Of a stretch of 64,000 nt of DNA, positions 25,329 through 64,000 are shown piece by piece. The DNA is from Pirellulales bacterium. GTDB taxonomy: Bacteria > Planctomycetota > Planctomycetia > Pirellulales > Thermoguttaceae. A model generated the notes under the pieces. It searched no databases and was not told the DNA's origin. It was given only the letters and a program-made list of their open reading frames with translations. Every line of letters begins with the position of its first letter. Positions within the stretch are counted from its first letter, which is position 1. The stretch is from the NCBI GenBank assembly GCA_016935315.1, contig JAFGRD010000119.1:1-64000 (forward strand), given 5' to 3'. The position numbers and the translations under genes were made by a program.

Positions 25329-25462
25329 GCCGCCACGGCGGTTGCGGAGCTTGTCGCGCTGCCCGGGTGCTGTTACGCTGGATTGCCGCGGCCGGGATCC
25401 GGTTACCCGGTCTGCTCCAGTTCGACGCTGAAGCCGAGTGCCCGTGGCAGGATGTTGATCCG

Positions 25463-26581
25463 ATGCAAATTGACTCGATCGAAGTATTTCACGTAGCCCT
25501 GCCGAGGAAGCAGCCCCAGGAGACGGTGGCCAGGCCGCTGGACACGTTGGAAACCGTATTGGTGCGGATGCAGAGCGGCCAGACGGTCGGCTGGGGAGAG
25601 GCCGGTCCCGGCAACGCGCCGGTGGCGTCGGCCGAATGGGCCGCCGGCGTGTTCGGCTGCCTGCGCGACTGGCTGGTCCCGGCCATCAGCGGCACGGTGG
25701 TCGATTCGGGCGACGATTTGCAGCAACGGCTGGCCCCGTTCCGCGGCAATCGCTTCGCCAAAGCCGCGCTCGACACGGCCTGGTGGGATCTGCAAGCCCG
25801 ACTCCAAGGCCAACCGCTGCACCAGCTTCTCGGCCCGGAACGCCAGGCCGTCGAGGTCGGCGTAACGTTTGACCAGATGGACTCGGTCGACGATTTTCTC
25901 TCGGGCATCGGCCGGGCCTTGGACGCCGGGTTCAGCCGGGTGGGGTTGAAGCTCCGGCCCGGCTGGGACGTTTTCATGGTCGACGCGGTTCGCAAAGAGT
26001 ACCCGATCGGGACGCTCCATGCCGACGCCGAAGGGGCACTGGGGCTGGAGCACATGGAGATGCTCTGCCGTTTCGACGATTTCACCCTGGCCATGATCGA
26101 ACAGCCACTGCCGGCGGACGACCTGGTGGGCCACGCCATGGTCCAGGAAGCCGTCCGCACACCGATCTGCCTCGATGAAAGCATCACCGATTTGGCGCAG
26201 GCCGAGATGGCGTTGGAGCTAAAGAGCTGCCAGTTCGTCAACCTCAAGCCGGGCCGCGTTGGAGGACTGACCACGGCGCTGGCGATTCACAACGCCTGTC
26301 ACGAGAACTGCGTGCCCTGCTGGGTGGGAGCCACTCCGCAAAGCGCCATCGGCCAGCGGTTCGGCCTCGCCCTGGCCGCGAAGGCCAACTGTACGTATCC
26401 GGCCGATTTCTTCCCCTCCGAAGACCTGCTGCGACAGGACCTGGCCCGGCCGCTGGTGCCCGCCCGCGACCAGTCCGACGGGAAGATGCGGATCCAACTC
26501 TGGTCCGAGCCGGGCATCGGCACGGAGCCGGATCAGGAGTTGCTCGACAAGTACTGCCTGGCCCGCGCAAAAGCTGATTGA
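25463..26581 (+). CDS. Enolase-superfamily OSBS/N-acylamino-acid racemase-like enzyme
   Basis: 372 aa from the ATG at 25463 ('MQIDSIEVFHVALP'). It has the lid domain of the muconate lactonizing enzyme subgroup and then a TIM barrel with the catalytic residues in place: Lys163 in 'VGLKLRPGWD', Asp in 'HADAEGAL', Glu in 'MIEQPLPADD', Asp in 'CLDESIT' and Lys262 in 'VNLKPGRVGG'. The pattern is that of o-succinylbenzoate synthase (menaquinone synthesis) and N-succinylamino-acid racemase, which cannot be separated by motif. The first Lys of the usual K-x-K is Gly, but the catalytic second Lys is kept. No other men genes adjoin it. It converges with the PfkB gene. Confidence 0.85.
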   Translation: MQIDSIEVFHVALPRKQPQETVARPLDTLETVLVRMQSGQTVGWGEAGPGNAPVASAEWAAGVFGCLRDWLVPAISGTVVDSGDDLQQRLAPFRGNRFAKAALDTAWWDLQARLQGQPLHQLLGPERQAVEVGVTFDQMDSVDDFLSGIGRALDAGFSRVGLKLRPGWDVFMVDAVRKEYPIGTLHADAEGALGLEHMEMLCRFDDFTLAMIEQPLPADDLVGHAMVQEAVRTPICLDESITDLAQAEMALELKSCQFVNLKPGRVGGLTTALAIHNACHENCVPCWVGATPQSAIGQRFGLALAAKANCTYPADFFPSEDLLRQDLARPLVPARDQSDGKMRIQLWSEPGIGTEPDQELLDKYCLARAKAD

Positions 26582-26616: not shown

Positions 26617-27549
26617 TCAGACGCGGAATCCGCGTGCTCGAAGAAAGGCGTTGACCGCCCCGGTTGCGGGGCACCCGGCCTGGCCCCCGGGCCTTGTCGC
26701 CTTCAGCGCCGCGGCCGCCGAGGCAACGGCGATCCGCTCGTACAAGTCCTTGGCCCCGGCCAAGGCTGACGCATAGGCCCCGTGAAACACGTCGCCACAG
26801 CCGGTCGTGTCCACAACCTCGACCGAGAACGCCGGGAAGTGGCGGGTTTGCGCCGCGTCCGGGCCGACGTACCAGCAGCCGCGCGAGCCGCCGGTTACCA
26901 CGACGGCTCGGCGGTCCGGTCTCCAAAGCTGCTCGGCAGCTCGGGCCGGATCTTGCACGCCGGTCAATCGTCGGGCGAACTGCTCAGAGAGAATCAGGTG
27001 ATCGGTCAAGGCCAGCACTTCGTCGAACGGCGGGCCGGGATCCCGCTCGAAATCGGCGACGACGCCGACACCGCTCTGTCGGGCGATCTGGACGGCACGC
27101 AGCGTCCCCTCCAGCCCGTGGTGGTCGATCAGTAGCACACCGGCGGCACGGATCAACTCCGCTTCAGGCCGCGAGGGGTCGGCGGCCACGGCCCCATCAA
27201 GGCTGGAGAAGACGGTGCGCGTCTTGTGCCGTTGATCGACGATGATCGTCGAGTGGCCCGGCCACGCTTCGTCGCACCGCACGCGATACGTCAGATCGAT
27301 CCCCTCCTCGCGGAAGCGATCCATGACGAAGCAGGAAAGCTCGTCGTCGCCCAACCTCCCCGCATAGGAGCATCGGGATCCCAGCCGCGCCGCCGCCACC
27401 AAGGCGGTGCCGGTCAAGCCGCCACATTGCCGCTCTCGCCGGCGGACTCTGACCTTGCCGTCGGCCGGCGGATACTCGTCGACATAGAGCAGATCGTCGA
27501 CGGCCACCACACCCAGGCCGAGAACGTCGAAGCGGGGGGAAACAGGCAT
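26617..27549 (-). CDS. PfkB-family carbohydrate kinase
   Basis: 310 aa from the ATG at 27549 ('MPVSPRFDVLGLGVVAVDD'). PfkB signatures are present: 'QCGGLTGTALVAAARLG' near the N-terminus with the G-G sugar-binding pair, 'YAGRLGDDELS', and the C-terminal ATP/anion-hole motif 'VDTTGCGDVFHGAYASAL' with catalytic Asp. The family phosphorylates ribose, fructose, other sugars, or nucleosides; the specificity cannot be told. It is transcribed away from the GT4 gene at 27749, with a 199-bp divergent region between them. Confidence 0.92.
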   Translation of the reverse strand: MPVSPRFDVLGLGVVAVDDLLYVDEYPPADGKVRVRRRERQCGGLTGTALVAAARLGSRCSYAGRLGDDELSCFVMDRFREEGIDLTYRVRCDEAWPGHSTIIVDQRHKTRTVFSSLDGAVAADPSRPEAELIRAAGVLLIDHHGLEGTLRAVQIARQSGVGVVADFERDPGPPFDEVLALTDHLILSEQFARRLTGVQDPARAAEQLWRPDRRAVVVTGGSRGCWYVGPDAAQTRHFPAFSVEVVDTTGCGDVFHGAYASALAGAKDLYERIAVASAAAALKATRPGGQAGCPATGAVNAFLRARGFRV

Positions 27550-27748
27550 TGCTGTGGAAATGGGCAAGTGCTGCAAACGGCTCAATCCAGCCCAGCAGCC
27601 TATCCTCTCAGCAGGGTGGTTTCAACCGTCCGCCTTCTCGACCGACCGGAAGGCCGCCTCCTTGATCGACCGGAAGAACATCGTTACGCTGTCTGTCACG
27701 GGGACAGGCCCCTTCTTCCGGGGTTAACCGAACAGGCGCACCGCTTAC

Positions 27749-29290
27749 ATGAACGTTGCCATTGTCCACTACCACCTGAATCGCGGCGGCGTGACGCGCG
27801 TGATCGAGAACCAACTCGCGGCGCTCGATGCGGTGCTCGATCCGGGGCGGCGGCTACGGGTGGCACTGATCTTCGGGGGAAGGCGGAAGGGCTGGAATGA
27901 GGATCTGCCTCGGCGATTGCAGTCAATCGAGCTGAGCCTGCACCCCGTACCCTCGTTGGATTACGAGACTCAGGGGAGGGCAGGCAATCTGTGCGAAGAC
28001 CTCTGCGGCCTGTTGGACGGCCTGGGCTTCGCCGCCGCGGAGACCGTGCTTCACGTCCACAACCACGCCTTAGGCAAGAACGTGGTGCTGCCGTCGAGCC
28101 TGCTGCGACTGGCCGAATCGGGGTTCGCCCTGTTGCTGCAAATCCACGACTTTCCGGAAGACTTTCGCCCGAACAACTACCGGCGGTTGCTTGAATCGGG
28201 GCTGGCGATTCAAACGGGGCCCACGGCGGCGCTCTATCCGCAGGCCCGGCAAGTCCACTACGCGGTGCTAAACGGCCGCGACCAGTCCATCCTCGCTGCC
28301 GCCGGCGTGGATTCCCGGCAGCTCCATCTGTTGCCGAATCCGGTGCCCGACATGGCCGGGTTGCCGCCCAGAGACCTGGCCCGGCAGCGTCTGGCCGAGC
28401 AGTTCGGCGTCGGCACAGGCCAACCATTCGTGCTCTACCCGGTCCGGGGCATTCGGCGGAAGAACCTTGGCGAGGCCCTGCTCTGCACGGCCCTGGCGCC
28501 GGAGGATGCGGCGTTGGGACTCACGCTGCCGCCGTTGAATCCGGCCGCACTGCCCGTCTATCGGCAGTGGAAACGAACGGCCGTCGAGTTGGACCTGCCG
28601 TTCTGTTTCGAGGTGGGCGCCCCGGAGCGGCTTACGTTCGCCGAAAACCTGGCAGCCGCCGATCTGATCCTCACCACCAGCCTGGCCGAAGGGTTCGGCA
28701 TGGTCTTTCTGGAATCCTGGTTGGCCGATCGGCCCCTGGCCGGCCGCGACCTGCCCGAGATCACCCGCGACTTCACCGAGTTGGGCGTTCGACTCGACCG
28801 CCTTCAACCGCGGCTCCGTGTTCCGCTGGCGTGGGTAGGCAGCGACGCCTTCCGGGAAATGCTGCTGGCCGCCTATCGCAAGACGCTCGATACCTACCGG
28901 CGCCAGGCACCCGCCGACATCCGCCAGCAGTGCGAGGCAAGGACCGACGAAGGCACGGTGGATTTCGGCGACCTGGACGAGACCTTGCAGCAGCAGGTGC
29001 TGCGGCTGGTGTGCGGCCACAGCGACCGGCGCCGAGAACTCAGGCGGCACAACCCGGAGGCCATCGAGGCCCTGTCCCTCGGCAGCAAAGACGTCGCCGC
29101 GTTGGTCCGCGAAAACGTCCAAGCCGTACAGGCCCACTACGGCCTCGCACCCAGCGGGCGGCGGCTGTGGCAGCTCTATCGGCGGGCGGCCGGCAGCGTC
29201 CGAGACGACCGCTGTGAACCGCTGCCTCGCCCGACGCGGATCATCGAGGCATTCCTCGAATTGAGGCGGTTCCACCCGATCTGCACCTAG
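27749..29290 (+). CDS. GT4-family glycosyltransferase
   Basis: 513 aa, starting 'MNVAIVHYHLNRGGVTRVIENQ', a GT-B opening with the glycine-rich nucleotide-sugar loop. The C-terminal half has 'FVLYPVRGIRRKNLGEAL' and the retaining GT4 E-x7-E motif, Glu314 and Glu322 in 'LAEGFGMVFLESW'. It transfers sugar from a nucleotide donor, probably in the cytoplasm; acceptor is unknown. Residues about 350-480 are an extra helical section after the catalytic domain. It may belong functionally with the HAD-GT4-GH13 operon 1.8 kb downstream, although a minus-strand gene lies between them. The Shine-Dalgarno signal is weak. Confidence 0.82.
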   Translation: MNVAIVHYHLNRGGVTRVIENQLAALDAVLDPGRRLRVALIFGGRRKGWNEDLPRRLQSIELSLHPVPSLDYETQGRAGNLCEDLCGLLDGLGFAAAETVLHVHNHALGKNVVLPSSLLRLAESGFALLLQIHDFPEDFRPNNYRRLLESGLAIQTGPTAALYPQARQVHYAVLNGRDQSILAAAGVDSRQLHLLPNPVPDMAGLPPRDLARQRLAEQFGVGTGQPFVLYPVRGIRRKNLGEALLCTALAPEDAALGLTLPPLNPAALPVYRQWKRTAVELDLPFCFEVGAPERLTFAENLAAADLILTTSLAEGFGMVFLESWLADRPLAGRDLPEITRDFTELGVRLDRLQPRLRVPLAWVGSDAFREMLLAAYRKTLDTYRRQAPADIRQQCEARTDEGTVDFGDLDETLQQQVLRLVCGHSDRRRELRRHNPEAIEALSLGSKDVAALVRENVQAVQAHYGLAPSGRRLWQLYRRAAGSVRDDRCEPLPRPTRIIEAFLELRRFHPICT

Positions 29291-29319: not shown

Positions 29320-30873
29320 TCAGTCGGCCCCCAGGCACAAGGGAGCCGCGGATGACGACGCCCCAGCGTTTGCGGCCATCTGCCTGGGGCACATGACCGG
29401 CACCGGCCGGTTCGTTTCCTTGTCGAGAAACTCCACCAGGCTGCCTCGGCCCAGATTGTCGCCGAAAACGACCCACTGCACCGCGTGATCACCTTGGCTG
29501 AGCTCGGTCTCGTAGATGGCCGATCGATCGTTGCCGACCGAACCGAAATCCTTGCCGTCGACCAGCAACCGCAGACTGCTGTTGGCGCCGGAGCCTCCCT
29601 TATGCCGGATCACCACCGTCGTCGGCTTGGAAACCTGGAGCGTTCCCCACAGAGTCAACTCGACGCGGTCGCCGGCCACGCGCCGCTTGGCAAACAACGA
29701 TCGGAGGGTCTCATCGTGCAGCGAAGAGCCGGGCTCATACTGTAAGGCGAACCCCGCGTCGGCAAACGAGTTCTCGCCCTCGCGACGCACCGATACACGC
29801 CCGACCAGCCCGGGGAACGAGCCGTCGGCGCGGCTGCGCACCGGGGTTCCCGGCTTTCTGCGGGGCCGCGTCTCCGGGGGCTTCGAGGGAGGATCAACAG
29901 GGGGCGAAGGCGTTTCCGGGGGCTCCGTCGGCGTTTCCGGGGAGTCCGTCGGCGTTTCGGACGGTTCGGCCGGCGGATCGGGCGGCTCCGTCGCCGGCTC
30001 GGACGGTTCCACAGATGGCTGCGGCGGTTCCACCGGAGGCTCCGATGGCGCTGCCATGGGACTTACCGGCGTCTCGGGCGGCAAACCGGGAACCTCGGCC
30101 GGCGAACCGGGCGCTTCGGCAGGTGGGCCAGGTATCTCGCCAGGATCGGTCGTTGGCGGCGAGGGATTGGTGGGCTGCTCGGGTGTCTGAGCAGGCTCCT
30201 CCGCAGGCTTGGGACGAATCGGGGGCGTTCCCGGCAGGTCACCGGGTAGCTCGGACACCGGCCCTGCTCGGCTGACCAGCCGCGGGCCTCCACCCGGACT
30301 GAGGAAATAGGCCAAAGCACCCAACACGACCAGGCCCGCCACAGCAGATCCGACCCATGCCGGCCGTCGCCAGGCCGGTCTTTTCCGGTGCGTCCGCCGG
30401 GCGACCTGCTCGGCGGCAGCGATCTGAGGTATCTCGATGCCTCCGAGGCCTGCGACCCGCGACGGCCGCGAGGTGGGCGGCTTGCGCTGGGCCTGCGGCA
30501 GGGGAATGACCCGCACCTGCGGTTGCTGCGGCGGCTCCGGCTCCGCTAGTGGCGACTCCGACGGCAGCGACTCCGATGGCGATAGTTCGGGCTGCAACTC
30601 GGCCCTCAGCGCCCGGTCGTACTCGGCCTTTCTCTTCTCGTGCAGCAGGACCAGCTTGGCTTGGGCCAATTCGTTGAGGATTCGCTGCGTCAGCTCGGAG
30701 TGTTTGCCTGTCTGGAACGTACGAACGTGGGCCATCTGCCGATCGGCCGCCGATTCGATGACGTTCGGGTCATCCTCGAACGTATCGACGCCCAACAGCC
30801 GATAATGGTTCGGTGGCTGGTCTTTCGGCGAGATTCCGAGCCAGCGGTGATAAGGATCGAAGGAATCGGACAT
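29320..30873 (-). CDS. J-like membrane protein with Pro-rich stalk
   Basis: 517 aa. The first 90 residues ('FDPYHRWLGISPKDQPPNHY', 'LLGVDTFEDDPNVIESAADR', 'KAEYDRALRAE') form a degenerate J-domain typical of planctomycetes; the HPD tripeptide needed for Hsp70 stimulation is absent. A single transmembrane helix (about 172-192, 'WVGSAVAGLVVLGALAYFL') follows a basic stretch. Residues about 195-345 are a Pro/Glu/Ser/Thr-rich stalk of repeated 'EPPxP' units. The last 170 residues form a globular beta-rich domain ('VELTLWGTLQVSKPTTVVIR', 'YETELSQGDHAVQWVVFGDN') on the far side of the membrane. This topology suggests a cytoplasm-to-periplasm linker. Function unknown. Confidence 0.78.
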   Translation of the reverse strand: MSDSFDPYHRWLGISPKDQPPNHYRLLGVDTFEDDPNVIESAADRQMAHVRTFQTGKHSELTQRILNELAQAKLVLLHEKRKAEYDRALRAELQPELSPSESLPSESPLAEPEPPQQPQVRVIPLPQAQRKPPTSRPSRVAGLGGIEIPQIAAAEQVARRTHRKRPAWRRPAWVGSAVAGLVVLGALAYFLSPGGGPRLVSRAGPVSELPGDLPGTPPIRPKPAEEPAQTPEQPTNPSPPTTDPGEIPGPPAEAPGSPAEVPGLPPETPVSPMAAPSEPPVEPPQPSVEPSEPATEPPDPPAEPSETPTDSPETPTEPPETPSPPVDPPSKPPETRPRRKPGTPVRSRADGSFPGLVGRVSVRREGENSFADAGFALQYEPGSSLHDETLRSLFAKRRVAGDRVELTLWGTLQVSKPTTVVIRHKGGSGANSSLRLLVDGKDFGSVGNDRSAIYETELSQGDHAVQWVVFGDNLGRGSLVEFLDKETNRPVPVMCPRQMAANAGASSSAAPLCLGAD

Positions 30874-31127: not shown

Positions 31128-31967
31128 GTGCTGAGACCGCTGGACGGGATCCGAGCCGTCCTGTTCGACCTCTACGGCACCCTGCTGGTCAGCGGCAGCG
31201 GCGAGGTGGGAACGGCCCGGCAGCAAGCCGCGGTGCCCGGGCAGCCACAAGCCCGGGCCCTCGACGACGCCTTGGCCGCGATGGAGATCTCCACTTCGCG
31301 GCCGGTCGGCCCTGATATCGAGGTGTTCTTCCAGGCGATCGAGGCATCGCACGCCCGGGGGCGGAGTCGGGGCATCGACTACCCGGAAGTCGATATTGTC
31401 GAGATCTGGCGGGAGGTGTTGAGCGAGTTCGTCCGTCGCGGCTTGTGCGACGCCGCGGTTTGCCGCCGCGTGGATCTCCAACGGCTGGCCGTGGAGTATG
31501 AAGCCCGGGCGAATCCGTGTTGGCCGATGCCGGGAGCGAAGGCGTGTCTTAGCCAGCTTCGTCAGGGCGGCCTGATATTGGGGATTATCAGCAACGCCCA
31601 GTTCTTCACGGCCGAGTTGCTCGCGGCCCTGTTGGGCGAAGCGACCGAAGACTGGGGATTTAACGGGGGTCTGCAGTACTATTCCTATCGTCATGGGCGT
31701 GCCAAACCCGGGTTGGCGCTGTTTGAGTTGGCCGCCGAAGACTTGCGGGGGCGCGGCCTTGGCCCGGCCGAAGTTCTCTACGTCGGAAACGACGTCCTGA
31801 ATGACGTCTGTCCGGCTCATGAGGTAGGGTTTTATACTGCTTTGTTTGCCGGCGACGCCCGCAGTCTGCGGCGTCGAGAGGGCGAGCCGCGCGTGCAAGC
31901 AGTCGCGGCGGATCTGGTGGTGACGGAACTGGAACAGCTCATCGAGTGTATTACGGCCCAAGACTGA
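31128..31967 (+). CDS. HAD-superfamily hydrolase (phosphatase/phosphomutase-like)
   Basis: 279 aa from the GTG at 31128, eight bases after GGAG; frames further upstream pass through a repeat and look non-coding. Motifs of HAD enzymes are visible: I '[11 protein letters not shown]' (nucleophile Asp, second Asp replaced by Tyr), II 'GIISNAQF', III 'RAKPGLALF' (Lys), IV '[12 protein letters not shown]'. The cap (about 40-110) is helical, as in subclass I. It starts a probable operon with the GT4 (35 bp) and GH13 (15 bp) genes. In glucosylglycerate-type pathways a HAD phosphatase follows a sugar-phosphate-forming transferase, which fits this position, but the substrate is inferred. Confidence 0.85.
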
Positions 31968-32002
31968 CGTCTGCGGCCAGCGCGGCAATTGGCGGTGGAA
32001 TC

Positions 32003-33268
32003 GTGCCACAGAACATCGGCTTCATCTCGACTCGGTTTTCCGGTACCGACGGCGTCTCGTTGGAGAGCGCCAAGTGGGCACAGGTCCTCTGGGACTACGA
32101 GCACGTGAGCCACTGGTACGCCGGCAAGCTCGACCGCGATCCGGGCGCCAGCATGTTGGTGCCGGAGGCGTACTTTTACGACCGGGACAACGTCTGGATC
32201 AACGAGCGGGCGTTCGGCACCCGCCAGCGGCCCCCGGAGTTGACCCGCAAGGTCTACGAAATCGCCGAGCACCTGAAGAATACGCTCTACGAATTCCGCA
32301 AGCAGTACGAGATCGACATCTTCATCGTCGAAAACGCGCTGTGTCTGCCGATGCACATCCCGTTGGGCGTGGCGCTGACCCACTTCATGGCCGAGACGGC
32401 GATGCCGACGGTTGCCCACCACCACGATTTCTACTGGGAGCGGCCGCGGTTTTCGGTCAATTCGGTGGAAGACTTCCTGGCGATGGCTTTTCCACCGAAG
32501 TCGGCGTCATTGCAGCATGTCACGATCAACTCGTTCGCCCAGGAAGACCTCTCCTGGCGCAAAGGGGCCTCCTCGATCATGGTTCCCAACGTGCTCGACT
32601 TCGAGCACCCCCCCGCAGAGGAGGAATTGAAGAGCACCGACTTCCGCCGCGAGATCGGCCTGGAGGAGGACGACATCATCCTCTTGCAGCCGACCCGGGT
32701 CGTGCCGCGCAAAGGCATCGAGCATTCGATCGCGCTGGTGTCTCAGTTGAGGAACCCCAAGTGCAAGCTGGTTGTCTCGCACGAGTCGGGCGACGAAGGG
32801 TTGGAATACCGCGACGCCTTGATCGAGCTGGCCGAACAGTCGGGCGTGGACCTGCGTTTCGTCCACGCCCAGACCCCGCTGGTCAACCCCTACGGGACGC
32901 ACCAGGCCGTGGGGACTTCGCTGGAAGAAGTCTACGCCCACGCCGATCTGATCACGTATCCCAGCCTGTACGAGGGTTTCGGCAACGCCCTGCTGGAGGC
33001 CTTCTACTATCGCAAGCCGGTGCTGGTCAACCGCTATGCGATCTTTATCTCCGACATCGAGCCGAAGGGATTCCAGGTGGTCACCATGAACGGCTTCCTC
33101 ACGCGAAACGTGCTCGAACACGTTCGCCGCGTGATATCCGACGACCAGTACCGCCAGGAAATGGTCGACTACAACTTCGAGTTGGGCAAGAAGTTCTTCA
33201 GCTACACCGTGCTCCGCCGCAAGCTCCGCTCGTTGATCACGGCCTTTACCGGACTGGACGACCTGTAG
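32003..33268 (+). CDS. GT4 glycosyltransferase beside GH13_18
   Basis: 421 aa from the GTG at 32003 after GGCGGTGGA. The start '[20 protein letters not shown]' is the donor loop of a GT-B fold; the C-terminal half has '[19 protein letters not shown]' and the retaining GT4 motif E324-x7-E332 in '[16 protein letters not shown]'. The HHHDF segment ('[14 protein letters not shown]') is unusual and well conserved in appearance. Its position directly before a GH13_18 phosphorylase-like gene suggests it makes the same alpha-glucoside that the partner breaks down, but this is an inference from context. The predicted site is the cytoplasm; no signal or membrane helix is present. Confidence 0.85.
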
Positions 33269-33283
33269 CCGCGGAAGCGCGTC

Positions 33284-35005
33284 ATGGACGATCGTCTCAA
33301 GCAGCGTTTGGACAGGCGACTGAAGCCGCTCTACGGGGATCGGGCCGCCTGGTGCCTCGATCAGATCGCCGCCCGGCTCGTACACTACCTGCCCAAGATA
33401 CCGCCGCTTCGAAAAACGGCCTGGGACCAGCGCGACGTGATGCTGATCACCTACGGCGACCAGGTCCGCGGCGAGGCTGAGCCGCCGTTGGCCACCCTGG
33501 GGCGGTTCCTCGCCATGGCCGGCTTGCAGGAGCTGCTGGGCACGGTCCACGTCCTGCCCTTCTTTCCCTATTCCTCCGACGACGGGTTCTCCGTCATCGA
33601 CTACCGCACCGTTGATCCGGCGCTGGGTGGATGGGCGGACGTCCAGGCCTTGGGGGAACGTTTCGATCTGATGTTCGATCTGGTGGTCAACCACGTCTCG
33701 CGCCGCAGCCGATGGTTCCAGGACTATGCCGCCGGGCGGGAGCCCTACACCGGCTACTTCATCGAAATGGACCCGCAAACGGATCTCTCCACCGTCACCC
33801 GACCCCGAAGCTTGCCGCTGCTGACGCCCGTGGAAACGGCCCGGGGCACGCGGCACCTGTGGACCACTTTCAGCGACGACCAACTCGACCTGAACTTCGC
33901 CGAGCCGGCGGTCCTCGTGGAAATGATCGACGTGCTGCTGTTCTACCTTCAGCAGGGCGCGCGGTTCATCCGGCTCGACGCGATCGCCTATCTTTGGAAG
34001 CAGCCGGGCACCTCGTGTATCCACCTACCGCAAACCCACGCCGTCGTGAAGCTTCTGCGCGATTTGGTCGACGCGGTGGCCCCGGGAGCGATCCTCCTGA
34101 CCGAAACCAACGTGCCGCACCAGGAGAATGCGAGCTACCTCGGCGAGGGGGATGAGGCCCAGATGATCTACCAGTTCAGCCTCGCGCCGCTGTTGCTCGA
34201 AGCCCTGCTTTCGGGTGACGCCACGCTGCTGGGAGGCTGGCTGGCCGAGTTGCCGCCCGCGCCGCCGCAGACGACCGTCCTGAATTTCACCGCTTCGCAC
34301 GACGGGATCGGCGTACGGCCTTTGGAGGGAATCATGCCGACGCCGCGGTTCGACCGGTTGCTCAAGGCCGTCGAGGCTCGGGGTGGATACATCAGCACCA
34401 AGCGGAACCCCGACGGAAGCGATAGCCCCTACGAGCTGAACATCACCTATTTCGACGCCCTGGCCGAGCCCGGCGACGCCAATCCGGCCATCCAGGTGCG
34501 GCGGTTCCTGGCCAGCCAGGCTTTGATGCTCTCGGTGCGGGGGATCCCGGCCGTCTACTTCCATAGCCTGGTCGGCACGCCCAACAACACGGCGGGCGTC
34601 GCCCGGACGGGACGCCCGCGATCGATCAACCGCAGGAAGTTCGAGTTGGCCGAGCTTCAAACGGTGCTCGGCGCGGCGGATTCCCCGCCGGCGATGGTGC
34701 TGGACGGATACCGCCGGCTGCTTCAGGTCCGCGTTGCCCAGCCGGCGTTCCATCCCGATGCGGCCCAAGTGGTCGTCCCACTCGGGCATCCGTCGCTGGT
34801 GGCGTTGGTGCGAAAGAGCATCGACGGTCGGCAAACGATCCTCGTCGTGGGCAACCTGGGACCGCAGCCGCAGTCGGTCGACGTTCGCAAGGCGACCGGG
34901 GCGGTTCCCGAGGCGGATTTGCTCGGCGGGCATCCGGTGGGCGACCCTGTGACGCTGTCGCCCTATCAGGTAGCCTGGATCACGCTGAAGGCGCCTGCGG
35001 CCTGA
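33284..35005 (+). CDS. GH13_18 sucrose/glucosylglycerate phosphorylase-like enzyme
   Basis: 573 aa. It is a GH13 barrel with 'VHVLPFFPYSSDDGFSVIDY' and 'DLMFDLVVNHVSRRSRW', catalytic nucleophile Asp232 ('FIRLDAIAYLW'), acid/base Glu274 ('LLTETNVPH') and transition-state Asp340 ('TASHDGIGVRP'). The 'SSDDGFSV', 'TSCIHLPQTH' and 'SHDGIGVRPLEG' stretches point to subfamily GH13_18, which holds sucrose and glucosylglycerate phosphorylases. The reaction would be reversible phosphorolysis of an alpha-glucoside to glucose 1-phosphate. There is no signal peptide, so it acts in the cytoplasm. The ATG is 15 bp after the GT4 stop; a strong hairpin follows the stop by 24 bp. Confidence 0.88.
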   Translation: MDDRLKQRLDRRLKPLYGDRAAWCLDQIAARLVHYLPKIPPLRKTAWDQRDVMLITYGDQVRGEAEPPLATLGRFLAMAGLQELLGTVHVLPFFPYSSDDGFSVIDYRTVDPALGGWADVQALGERFDLMFDLVVNHVSRRSRWFQDYAAGREPYTGYFIEMDPQTDLSTVTRPRSLPLLTPVETARGTRHLWTTFSDDQLDLNFAEPAVLVEMIDVLLFYLQQGARFIRLDAIAYLWKQPGTSCIHLPQTHAVVKLLRDLVDAVAPGAILLTETNVPHQENASYLGEGDEAQMIYQFSLAPLLLEALLSGDATLLGGWLAELPPAPPQTTVLNFTASHDGIGVRPLEGIMPTPRFDRLLKAVEARGGYISTKRNPDGSDSPYELNITYFDALAEPGDANPAIQVRRFLASQALMLSVRGIPAVYFHSLVGTPNNTAGVARTGRPRSINRRKFELAELQTVLGAADSPPAMVLDGYRRLLQVRVAQPAFHPDAAQVVVPLGHPSLVALVRKSIDGRQTILVVGNLGPQPQSVDVRKATGAVPEADLLGGHPVGDPVTLSPYQVAWITLKAPAA

Positions 35006-35028
35006 GTGCGGCTGGAACCACGACGCGC

Positions 35029-35053
35029 GGCATTGCCGGGCCCCGGCAATGCC
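35029..35053 (+). terminator. Perfect 12-bp hairpin after the GH13 gene
   Basis: GGCATTGCCGGG (35029-35040) and CCCGGCAATGCC (35042-35053) form a perfect 12-bp stem with one base between the arms. It lies 24 bp past the GH13_18 stop and 100 bp before the next start, as expected for a transcription terminator of the HAD-GT4-GH13 operon. It has no T-run, so intrinsic termination is uncertain. Confidence 0.55.
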
Positions 35054-35152
35054 GGCGACTGTCCGGATTCTTGCGCAGTAAGAATGGGTGTCCTCCGGCC
35101 GCACTGTGCAAACATCTCCCGTTCCGCCCTGGACACGCACGAGGACAACACC

Positions 35153-35518
35153 ATGCGCGATTTGGAGGACCTGTTCGCCGCCTTGACTCGAAGCGAGTTT
35201 CGCAGCCGCTTTTGCCTCGGGCCAAAGGAGCGCGCGTATCTCGACGCGAAGACGCTGCCGGTGGTCCTCGAACATGCGAGAAAGTTCCTCGAAGACCGTC
35301 TAGCCCCGGCGGAACCGCGCAACGACGGACGCCAGACGCCCATGCGGGGCCATCCGGTTTTCATTGCCCAGCACGCCACGGCGACCTGCTGTCGCGGGTG
35401 TCTGGCCAAATGGCACTCCATTGCCAAGGCGAAAAGGCTCTCGGACGAGCAGATCAAGTACCTGCTGGAGGTGATCGAGCGTTGGCTGAGAGGGCAACAG
35501 CCGCCGGCAGCGACGTGA
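35153..35518 (+). CDS. DUF4186 family protein
   Basis: 121 aa from the ATG at 35153 preceded by GAGGAC. The whole chain matches DUF4186: 'RSEFRSRFCLGPKERAYL', 'RKFLEDRLAPAEPRNDGRQT', 'PMRGHPVFIAQHATATCCRG' and 'CLAKWHSIAKAKRLSDEQI'. The conserved HPVF, HATATCCRGC and KWH residues suggest a metal or nucleic-acid site. It is a small cytoplasmic protein with no known function. A longer open frame upstream has no start signal. The following gene, pntB, is on the other strand. Confidence 0.9.
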   Translation: MRDLEDLFAALTRSEFRSRFCLGPKERAYLDAKTLPVVLEHARKFLEDRLAPAEPRNDGRQTPMRGHPVFIAQHATATCCRGCLAKWHSIAKAKRLSDEQIKYLLEVIERWLRGQQPPAAT

Positions 35519-63596: not shown

Positions 63597-64000
63597 ATGA
63601 TGTTGAGAAACGTGTTTCTAGCGGTTCTAGCTGCGGTTGCCGTCGCGTTAAGCCCATCGGGTATGCTGGCCGGGCTGCCCGACAAGGTCGAAGACGGCGT
63701 CATGCTGCACTGTCACGGCTGGCCGTTGAGGGCGATCGAAGCCAACCTGGATCGAATCGCCGCGGCCGGCTTCAACGCGGTGCAAGTCTCCCCGGTCCAT
63801 CCGATCCGACGGCCCAAGCCGGAAGAGAAACCGCCGCAGCAGCCTTCCGGACCGTGGTGGCTTCTCTATCAGCCGGTCAGCTTCCAGAACATCGGCAACT
63901 ACAAGGTCGGCACGGAAGCGGAGCTGCGAAGTCTTGCCGAAAAGGCGGAGCAAAAGGGCATCAAGATTATCGTCGACGCCGTGCTGAACCACGTGGCCGA
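63597..64000 (+). CDS. Secreted GH13 alpha-amylase family protein (5' part)
   Basis: The first about 134 residues only; the gene continues beyond the window. The start is ATG at 63597 or 63600, after GAAGGAGAAG. Residues 1-25 form a signal peptide ('FLAVLAAVAVALSPSGMLAG'). The mature part has 'AANLDRIAAAGFNAVQVSPV' style strand-helix and 'YQPVSFQNIGNYKVGTEAEL' then 'IKIIVDAVLNHVA', the first conserved region (DxxxNH) of GH13. An extracellular starch- or glucan-degrading enzyme is expected. Confidence 0.85.
   Translation, partial: MMLRNVFLAVLAAVAVALSPSGMLAGLPDKVEDGVMLHCHGWPLRAIEANLDRIAAAGFNAVQVSPVHPIRRPKPEEKPPQQPSGPWWLLYQPVSFQNIGNYKVGTEAELRSLAEKAEQKGIKIIVDAVLNHVA

Follow-up and report, generated by a model that had tools for sequence, protein, structure and literature searches.

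Organization of the locus

The DNA analysed here, a 64,000-nt stretch from a Pirellulales bacterium (hereafter the window), carries three closely spaced genes for a HAD hydrolase, a GT4-type glycosyltransferase and a GH13_18 enzyme, with a further glycosyltransferase gene, which we call GTup, lying upstream. Together these genes probably belong to a module that makes and recycles a compatible solute based on glucosylglycerate (GG). The locus sits on contig C165 of a planctomycete-type genome of 7.1 Mb in 172 contigs (G000), and its features are the following.

27749–29290, + strand: GTup, first gene of the conserved block; GT-B (GT4-like) glycosyltransferase of retaining type, 513 aa, with a helical C-terminal extension
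29320–30873, − strand: gene between GTup and HAD, outside the conserved block; 517 aa, N-terminus J-domain-like by eye
31128–31967, + strand: HAD hydrolase of the C1-cap type (PF00702), GTG start, 279 aa; putative phosphatase or atypical HAD
32003–33268, + strand: GT4 of an MggS-like family (NF041101) with an AHHHDF segment, GTG start, 421 aa
33284–35005, + strand: GH13_18 enzyme, 573 aa, predicted glucosylglycerate phosphorylase (GGaP) from identity to YcjM, fingerprints and trees
35028–35054, no strand: perfect inverted repeat between the GH13 gene and a DUF4186 gene

The positions of HAD, GT4 and GH13 given in the initial annotation are confirmed, as are the gaps of 35 nt (HAD to GT4) and 15 nt (GT4 to GH13). 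GTup ends 1837 nt before HAD, with the opposite-strand gene in between. The product of that gene matches no Pfam family at the E 0.001 threshold (lowest E 0.47), and tblastn did not find the gene in the loci of the relatives. In the closest relative (L068:6209-7839), the stretch between GTup and HAD contains other small open frames, so this junction takes up unrelated inserts.

The predicted phosphorylase

The GH13 protein, as predicted from its sequence, is very probably a GGaP. It contains the Pfam alpha-amylase catalytic domain (73.4 bits) and aligns over residues 4–572 with Escherichia coli YcjM at 43.2% identity (E 1.7e-155). The YcjM sequence comes from the K-12 record, which annotates it as glucosylglycerate phosphorylase, and YcjM stands among the characterized GGaPs in PMC8950772. 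The nucleophile D232, the acid/base E274 and D340 are each present in all 35 cluster sequences, the window included. Two marks of GGaPs are named in PMC7178133: a (T/S)ETN motif and a loop-A Glu where other clades have Gln. The window protein carries both. Its TETN motif, which begins at residue 273 and includes E274, lies at the tip of β-strand 5 (among the 35 sequences the first position is T in 33 and S in 2, and ETN is present in all), and its loop A reads PYE (residues 382–384, with Glu384), as in all 35 sequences and YcjM, whereas two sucrose phosphorylases have Gln.

An operon built around a plain sucrose or glucosylglycerol phosphorylase would agree with two of the database results: the best NCBIfam model is TIGR03852, sucrose phosphorylase (187.5 bits, under its cut-off of 334.4), and the best PDB matches are GH13_18 sucrose and glucosylglycerol phosphorylases. 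Such an operon is nevertheless very improbable, as both GGaP fingerprints are present, with Glu replacing the Gln of other clades, and YcjM is far closer. In addition, a quick 21-row tree, with long outgroup branches and an unresolved inner order, intermixes the cluster GH13s with YcjM and two plasmid-borne relatives and places the two sucrose phosphorylases apart (branch 6.2, support 99). The rows omitted from that tree were the amylase of the same genome, L. plantarum and 20 of the 34 GH13s of the cluster, and its TreS row was trimmed to 600 residues. A quick 43-row tree drew the amylase of the same genome (branch 10) in among the cluster rows, a long-branch artefact. The initial annotation had called the protein a GH13_18 phosphorylase-like enzyme and proposed a phylogeny in which clustering with plain hydrolases would count against its reading; it groups instead with GGaPs, beside the characterized YcjM, and not with hydrolases or sucrose phosphorylases.

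Two other loci bear on this enzyme family. A second GH13 gene in the window, at 63729, was considered as a paralogue and set aside as a secreted-type amylase of another kind. A Pseudoalteromonas plasmid (L179) carries another GGaP trio, with a HAD-IIB hydrolase, a glycosyl transferase and a sugar phosphorylase in series.

A conserved block across relatives

The three genes are only part of a conserved unit, to which GTup also belongs and from which it is separated here by the opposite-strand gene. To describe this unit we counted linkage over the best 80 of 303 GTup loci from a genome scan, with the loci long enough to tell as denominators. HAD follows GTup in 61 of 69 loci, drawn from at least three phyla (the eight without it are L073, L078, L082, L084, L102, L103, L107 and L118); GT4 is present in 39 of 57, and GH13 lies nearby in 28 of 51. 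In two Botrimarina loci (L135, 8962–11280; L137, 8992–11280), GTup and HAD share one frame, forming a natural fusion of 773 aa in L135. One of two types of GpgS, the likely maker of glucosyl-3-phosphoglycerate (GPG), is found in 53 of 75 loci, and the two types occur together in none of the 80: the GT81-type lies upstream of GTup in 32 loci (by tblastn; 30 by open-reading-frame count), and a GpgS_Meth-like protein lies near GH13 in 23 others. Upstream of the GT81-type GpgS there is regularly an M20/M28-like hydrolase gene, seen in 29 of these 32 loci (29 of 80).

Narrower samples gave a similar picture. All 19 loci of a family sample with a GT4 at least 67% identical, the window included, have HAD adjoining, and 20 further loci from genomes of the order hold the GTup–HAD pair in 17 cases, GT4 in 16 and GH13 in 13 (three of these loci repeat genomes of the GTup scan, in which several loci of an earlier search also recur). 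In two Desulfobulbaceae loci (L146 and L147), the order is GT4–GH13–cupin–M20–GpgS–GTup–HAD, which indicates that the linkage survived rearrangement. The cupin there matches mannose-6-phosphate isomerase, and a cupin of this type occurs in four GTup loci, which fits the use of GDP-mannose. The initial annotation had proposed checking whether the trio recurs in other planctomycetes, and it does; the unit itself, however, starts with GTup, which that annotation had left unlinked to the trio.

Several neighbours fall outside the block. A PfkB kinase gene (26617–27585) was weighed as a pathway member and rejected, having no match in the 80 GTup loci, as was an enolase-superfamily gene (25367–26581), which has a single weak match there (26%, L083). 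The inverted repeat begins 22 nt past the GH13 stop, has 13-nt arms separated by 1 nt, can form a 12-bp stem capped by a 3-nt loop (z −1.98) and occurs as a single copy within the window. The perfect 12-bp hairpin described earlier is thus real, arising as a 12-bp stem from 13-nt arms, and a role as a plain terminator is not supported, as no T-run lies downstream and the repeat is missing from the terminator scan list. The DUF4186 gene (35153–35518, 160.8 bits) comes after GH13 here and likewise in L086.

Co-occurrence across genomes

In the genome of the window, GpgS is unlinked from the trio: it lies on another contig (G000:C111:2071-3012) and scores 391.1 bits against NF010496, over the cut-off of 262. 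An M20-like gene (L157:3026-4246, − strand, G000:C111) directly precedes it, so the order seen in relatives has been kept even though the block is split. Of the two GpgS types, the NF040724-like one stays under its cut-off (355 and 364 of 700).

GTup and GT4 tend to occur in the same genomes. Of the 24 GTup-bearing genomes, 22 also encode an MggS-like GT4 at full length, one encodes a piece and one lacks it; conversely, among the 20 family genomes that carry a cluster-type GT4, GTup is complete or almost so in 17, a piece in one and missing from two. GpgS passes its cut-off in 15 of the same 20 genomes, with two more holding the other GpgS type in the cluster, versus 1 of the 16 family genomes lacking a cluster-type GT4, and that one carries GTup and HAD (Fisher p 3.8e-5). 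Where a genome has any MggS-like GT4, a strong GH13 match accompanies it in 17 of 23 cases, versus 2 of 27 genomes lacking such a GT4 (Fisher p 1.3e-6); in this count, the broken, stop-containing pieces of genome G027 and matches with E between 1e-8 and 1e-30 were scored as absent. The genomes were hand-picked from a family listing and are related, so both p values are too optimistic and are no true probabilities.

This relatedness is one of two points in favour of the genes lying together by chance or shared phylogeny with no common pathway, the other being that GH13 and GpgS are often unlinked. Even so, we give that explanation hardly any credence. The same gene set occurs in another order in Desulfobulbaceae and Verrucomicrobia, the GpgS types are mutually exclusive, and GTup is found fused to HAD. 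Moreover, in G027 (contigs C152 and C281) GTup and GH13 are both fragmented and interrupted by stops, as if the whole pathway were being lost together.

The two glycosyltransferases

At an E threshold of 0.001, the GTup of the window matches no family model in Pfam or NCBIfam. Its predicted structure (pLDDT 93.8, pTM 0.92) adopts a GT-B fold, with HepE (4xsr) as its best VIA fold match (Z 26.2, root-mean-square deviation 2.9, 345 residues aligned), followed by BshA (24.9), MshA (23.2), sucrose-phosphate synthase (22.8) and a methylmannose polysaccharide mannosyltransferase (22.7). An E314-x7-E322 motif, R237-K238 and an H133-D134 pair are invariant in 40 GTup sequences. Several of the fold relatives act on hydroxy-acid or phosphorylated acceptors, and by analogy this would agree with GPG or GG as the acceptor of GTup, an agreement that proves nothing. 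Across genomes of the order, a GTup profile finds a match at E 0.001 in 82 of 296, with 67 of these at E < 1e-100, which suggests a system that is common yet far from universal. With relatives at 303 loci, GTup represents a widespread glycosyltransferase family lacking a curated name.

The GT4 protein matches NF041101, the model for mannosylglucosylglycerate synthase (MggS), with 248.6 bits over residues 4–411 (model positions 2–430). From this similarity we predict that it belongs to the MggS family, and we do not file it as MggS itself. NF041101 has matches in 3 of 14 control genomes, Thermotoga maritima among them, and one of these three is over the cut-off. The EX7E motif (E324, E332) is invariant in 15 sequences. 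The HHHDF segment, which had struck the initial annotation as unusual for a GT4, is instead a hallmark of the family, present in all 48 cluster GT4 relatives of 380–520 aa. Sequence searches of the PDB found nothing closely related to GTup, GT4 or HAD.

The genome also encodes a second MggS-like GT4 (L059:7384-8691, − strand, G000:C137), which is 47% identical to the first and scores 229.5 bits against NF041101. It is not located near the rest of the pathway, whereas a paralogue of this kind lies within the cluster in L079 and L085.

The HAD hydrolase

The HAD protein matches PF00702 with 49.7 bits (cut-off 26.4), and this match and the fold of its model (pLDDT 94.8) agree on a HAD of the C1-cap type. 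Its motif I reads D-x-Y-G-T, which is invariant in 11 aligned sequences and found in 62 of 63 relatives, rather than the canonical phosphatase motif D-x-D-x-T. The second Asp of motif I is the usual acid-base of HAD phosphatases, and 2-haloacid dehalogenases lack it. In motif IV, G-N-D-x3-D, the first Asp position is occupied by Asn and the next residue is Asp. Foldseek ranks L-2-haloacid dehalogenases best. By VIA-align, dehalogenases tie with phosphatases (Z 17.7–20.9 over the list), so that the fold search separates neither.

The steady place of HAD beside glycosyltransferases argues for a phosphatase, whereas the motif argues against an ordinary one. The earlier label of HAD phosphatase thus stands as to the fold, and its phosphatase half is made doubtful by D-x-Y-G-T. 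The protein would be a phosphatase that does without the customary second Asp, or else another kind of HAD. If it were a dehalogenase-type or other atypical HAD with another task, a phosphatase elsewhere would serve GpgS. The D-x-Y-G-T motif, the G-N-D of motif IV and the Foldseek ranking speak for this alternative. We consider it rather unlikely, given that VIA-align does not favour dehalogenases over phosphatases, that GpgS is expected to yield a phosphorylated intermediate, and that solved HADs such as LHPP, by alignment, likewise lack the second Asp.

Proposed pathway

Taken together, we favour as probable a synthesis and recycling module for a GG-based compatible solute, which would most likely be mannosylglucosylglycerate (MGG) or a close oligoside; for MGG itself the chances are about even. 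The planctomycete Rhodopirellula baltica is known to use MGG as a solute and accumulates it with salt and under nitrogen limitation (PMC3694870). In the proposed sequence of steps, GpgS would convert NDP-glucose and 3-phosphoglycerate into GPG. GTup would then transfer a sugar onto a phosphorylated acceptor, in the simplest case mannose onto GPG, and HAD would take the phosphate off the GTup product. GT4 may glycosylate free GG or the product, with GDP-mannose as a likely donor. Finally, GH13 would convert GG and phosphate into glucose 1-phosphate and D-glycerate when the solute is unneeded or when phosphate and carbon need balancing. Family-level gene identities, linkage and co-occurrence are seen in the sequences; we infer the substrates of GTup, GT4 and HAD, and with them the in vivo direction of GH13 and what becomes of the glycerate.

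The initial annotation had let the trio build an alpha-glucoside, for instance glucosylglycerate, and break it down to glucose 1-phosphate. The breakdown enzyme holds up, as a GGaP-type GH13. The trio as sole builder does not, with the likely GPG maker, GpgS, on another contig and a GT4 that is kin to MggS and not a glucosylglycerate synthase.

Several observations weigh against the module as proposed. Its least constant gene is GH13: 23 of 51 loci have no copy within reach, and no copy was found in 6 of the 23 GT4 genomes, of which some are incomplete. GTup has no other block genes nearby in two complete genomes (L161 and L163). GT4 falls far under the MggS cut-off of 640, as do seven other relatives scanned (214–250). 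HAD has D-x-Y for D-x-D and G-N-D for G-D, as in dehalogenase-type HADs. The class-2 glycerate kinase PF13660 has no match in this genome, where other kinases (PF02595) were not searched for.

The same genes can be assigned differently. HAD and GT4 could be the functional MggB (MGG-3-phosphate phosphatase) and MggA (the synthase), with GTup lengthening the solute to an undescribed GG-primed oligosaccharide. MggA and MggS are reportedly homologous, and given this, a distant MggS relative may be MggA; HAD directly precedes GT4; and GTup and GT4 occur together in 22 of 24 genomes, a pairing for which there would be no need if they were alternative routes to one product. The steadier partner of HAD, however, is GTup (61 of 69 loci) and not GT4 (39 of 57), and GTup and HAD are fused in two isolates. 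We also know of no R. baltica oligosaccharide beyond MGG, which counts against the lengthening step. We regard this assignment as possible and hold it only tentatively.

With similar caution we suggest that GTup and the D-x-Y HAD may form a new glycosyltransferase–hydrolase pair, sometimes fused, that carries out a new step on GPG. With GpgS and the MggS-like GT4, the pair might produce an undescribed GG-primed oligosaccharide in planctomycetes, Verrucomicrobia and Desulfobulbaceae that is recycled by GGaP.

Comparison with known systems

GGaP, GpgS, MggS and the presence of MGG in planctomycetes are already known. We found no description of the four-to-seven-gene cluster, GTup or the D-x-Y HAD in literature searches that mostly left subscription papers outside, and the key publications on R. 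baltica and GGaP could have assigned GTup, HAD or GT4 to MggA or MggB. The R. baltica MGG pathway is reported to consist of GpgS, MggA and MggB and, so described, resembles the present system in belonging to the same order, in its logic of GpgS, glycosyltransferase and phosphatase, and in the expected solute. GT4 shares full-length homology with MggS (NF041101) and differs in scoring 248.6 bits against a cut-off of 640. In 53 of 75 loci, GTup or GH13 has a GpgS neighbour of either the NF010496 or the NF040724 type, and the GpgS copy in this genome passes the NF010496 cut-off; it differs in being unlinked from the trio here, and the NF040724-like type in staying under its cut-off.

The closest parallel is GGaP itself (EC 2.4.1.352; E. 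coli YcjM, Meiothermus silvanus MsGGaP and Spith_0877), with which the GH13 protein shares the GH13_18 fold family, the catalytic residues, (T/S)ETN, the loop-A Glu and 43% identity to YcjM. The gene neighbours differ: here they are GTup, the D-x-Y HAD and the MggS-like GT4, whereas those of E. coli ycjM are an ABC importer and kojibiose phosphorylase. Published GGaP neighbours comprise glycerate kinase, GpgS or GpgP (PMC7178133). The same review describes the in vivo role of GGaP as unproven and states that many carriers are not considered glucosylglycerate producers. In the present cluster, GGaP adjoins GG/MGG-type glycosyltransferases in organisms that have GpgS, so that synthesis and recycling within one cell become directly testable.

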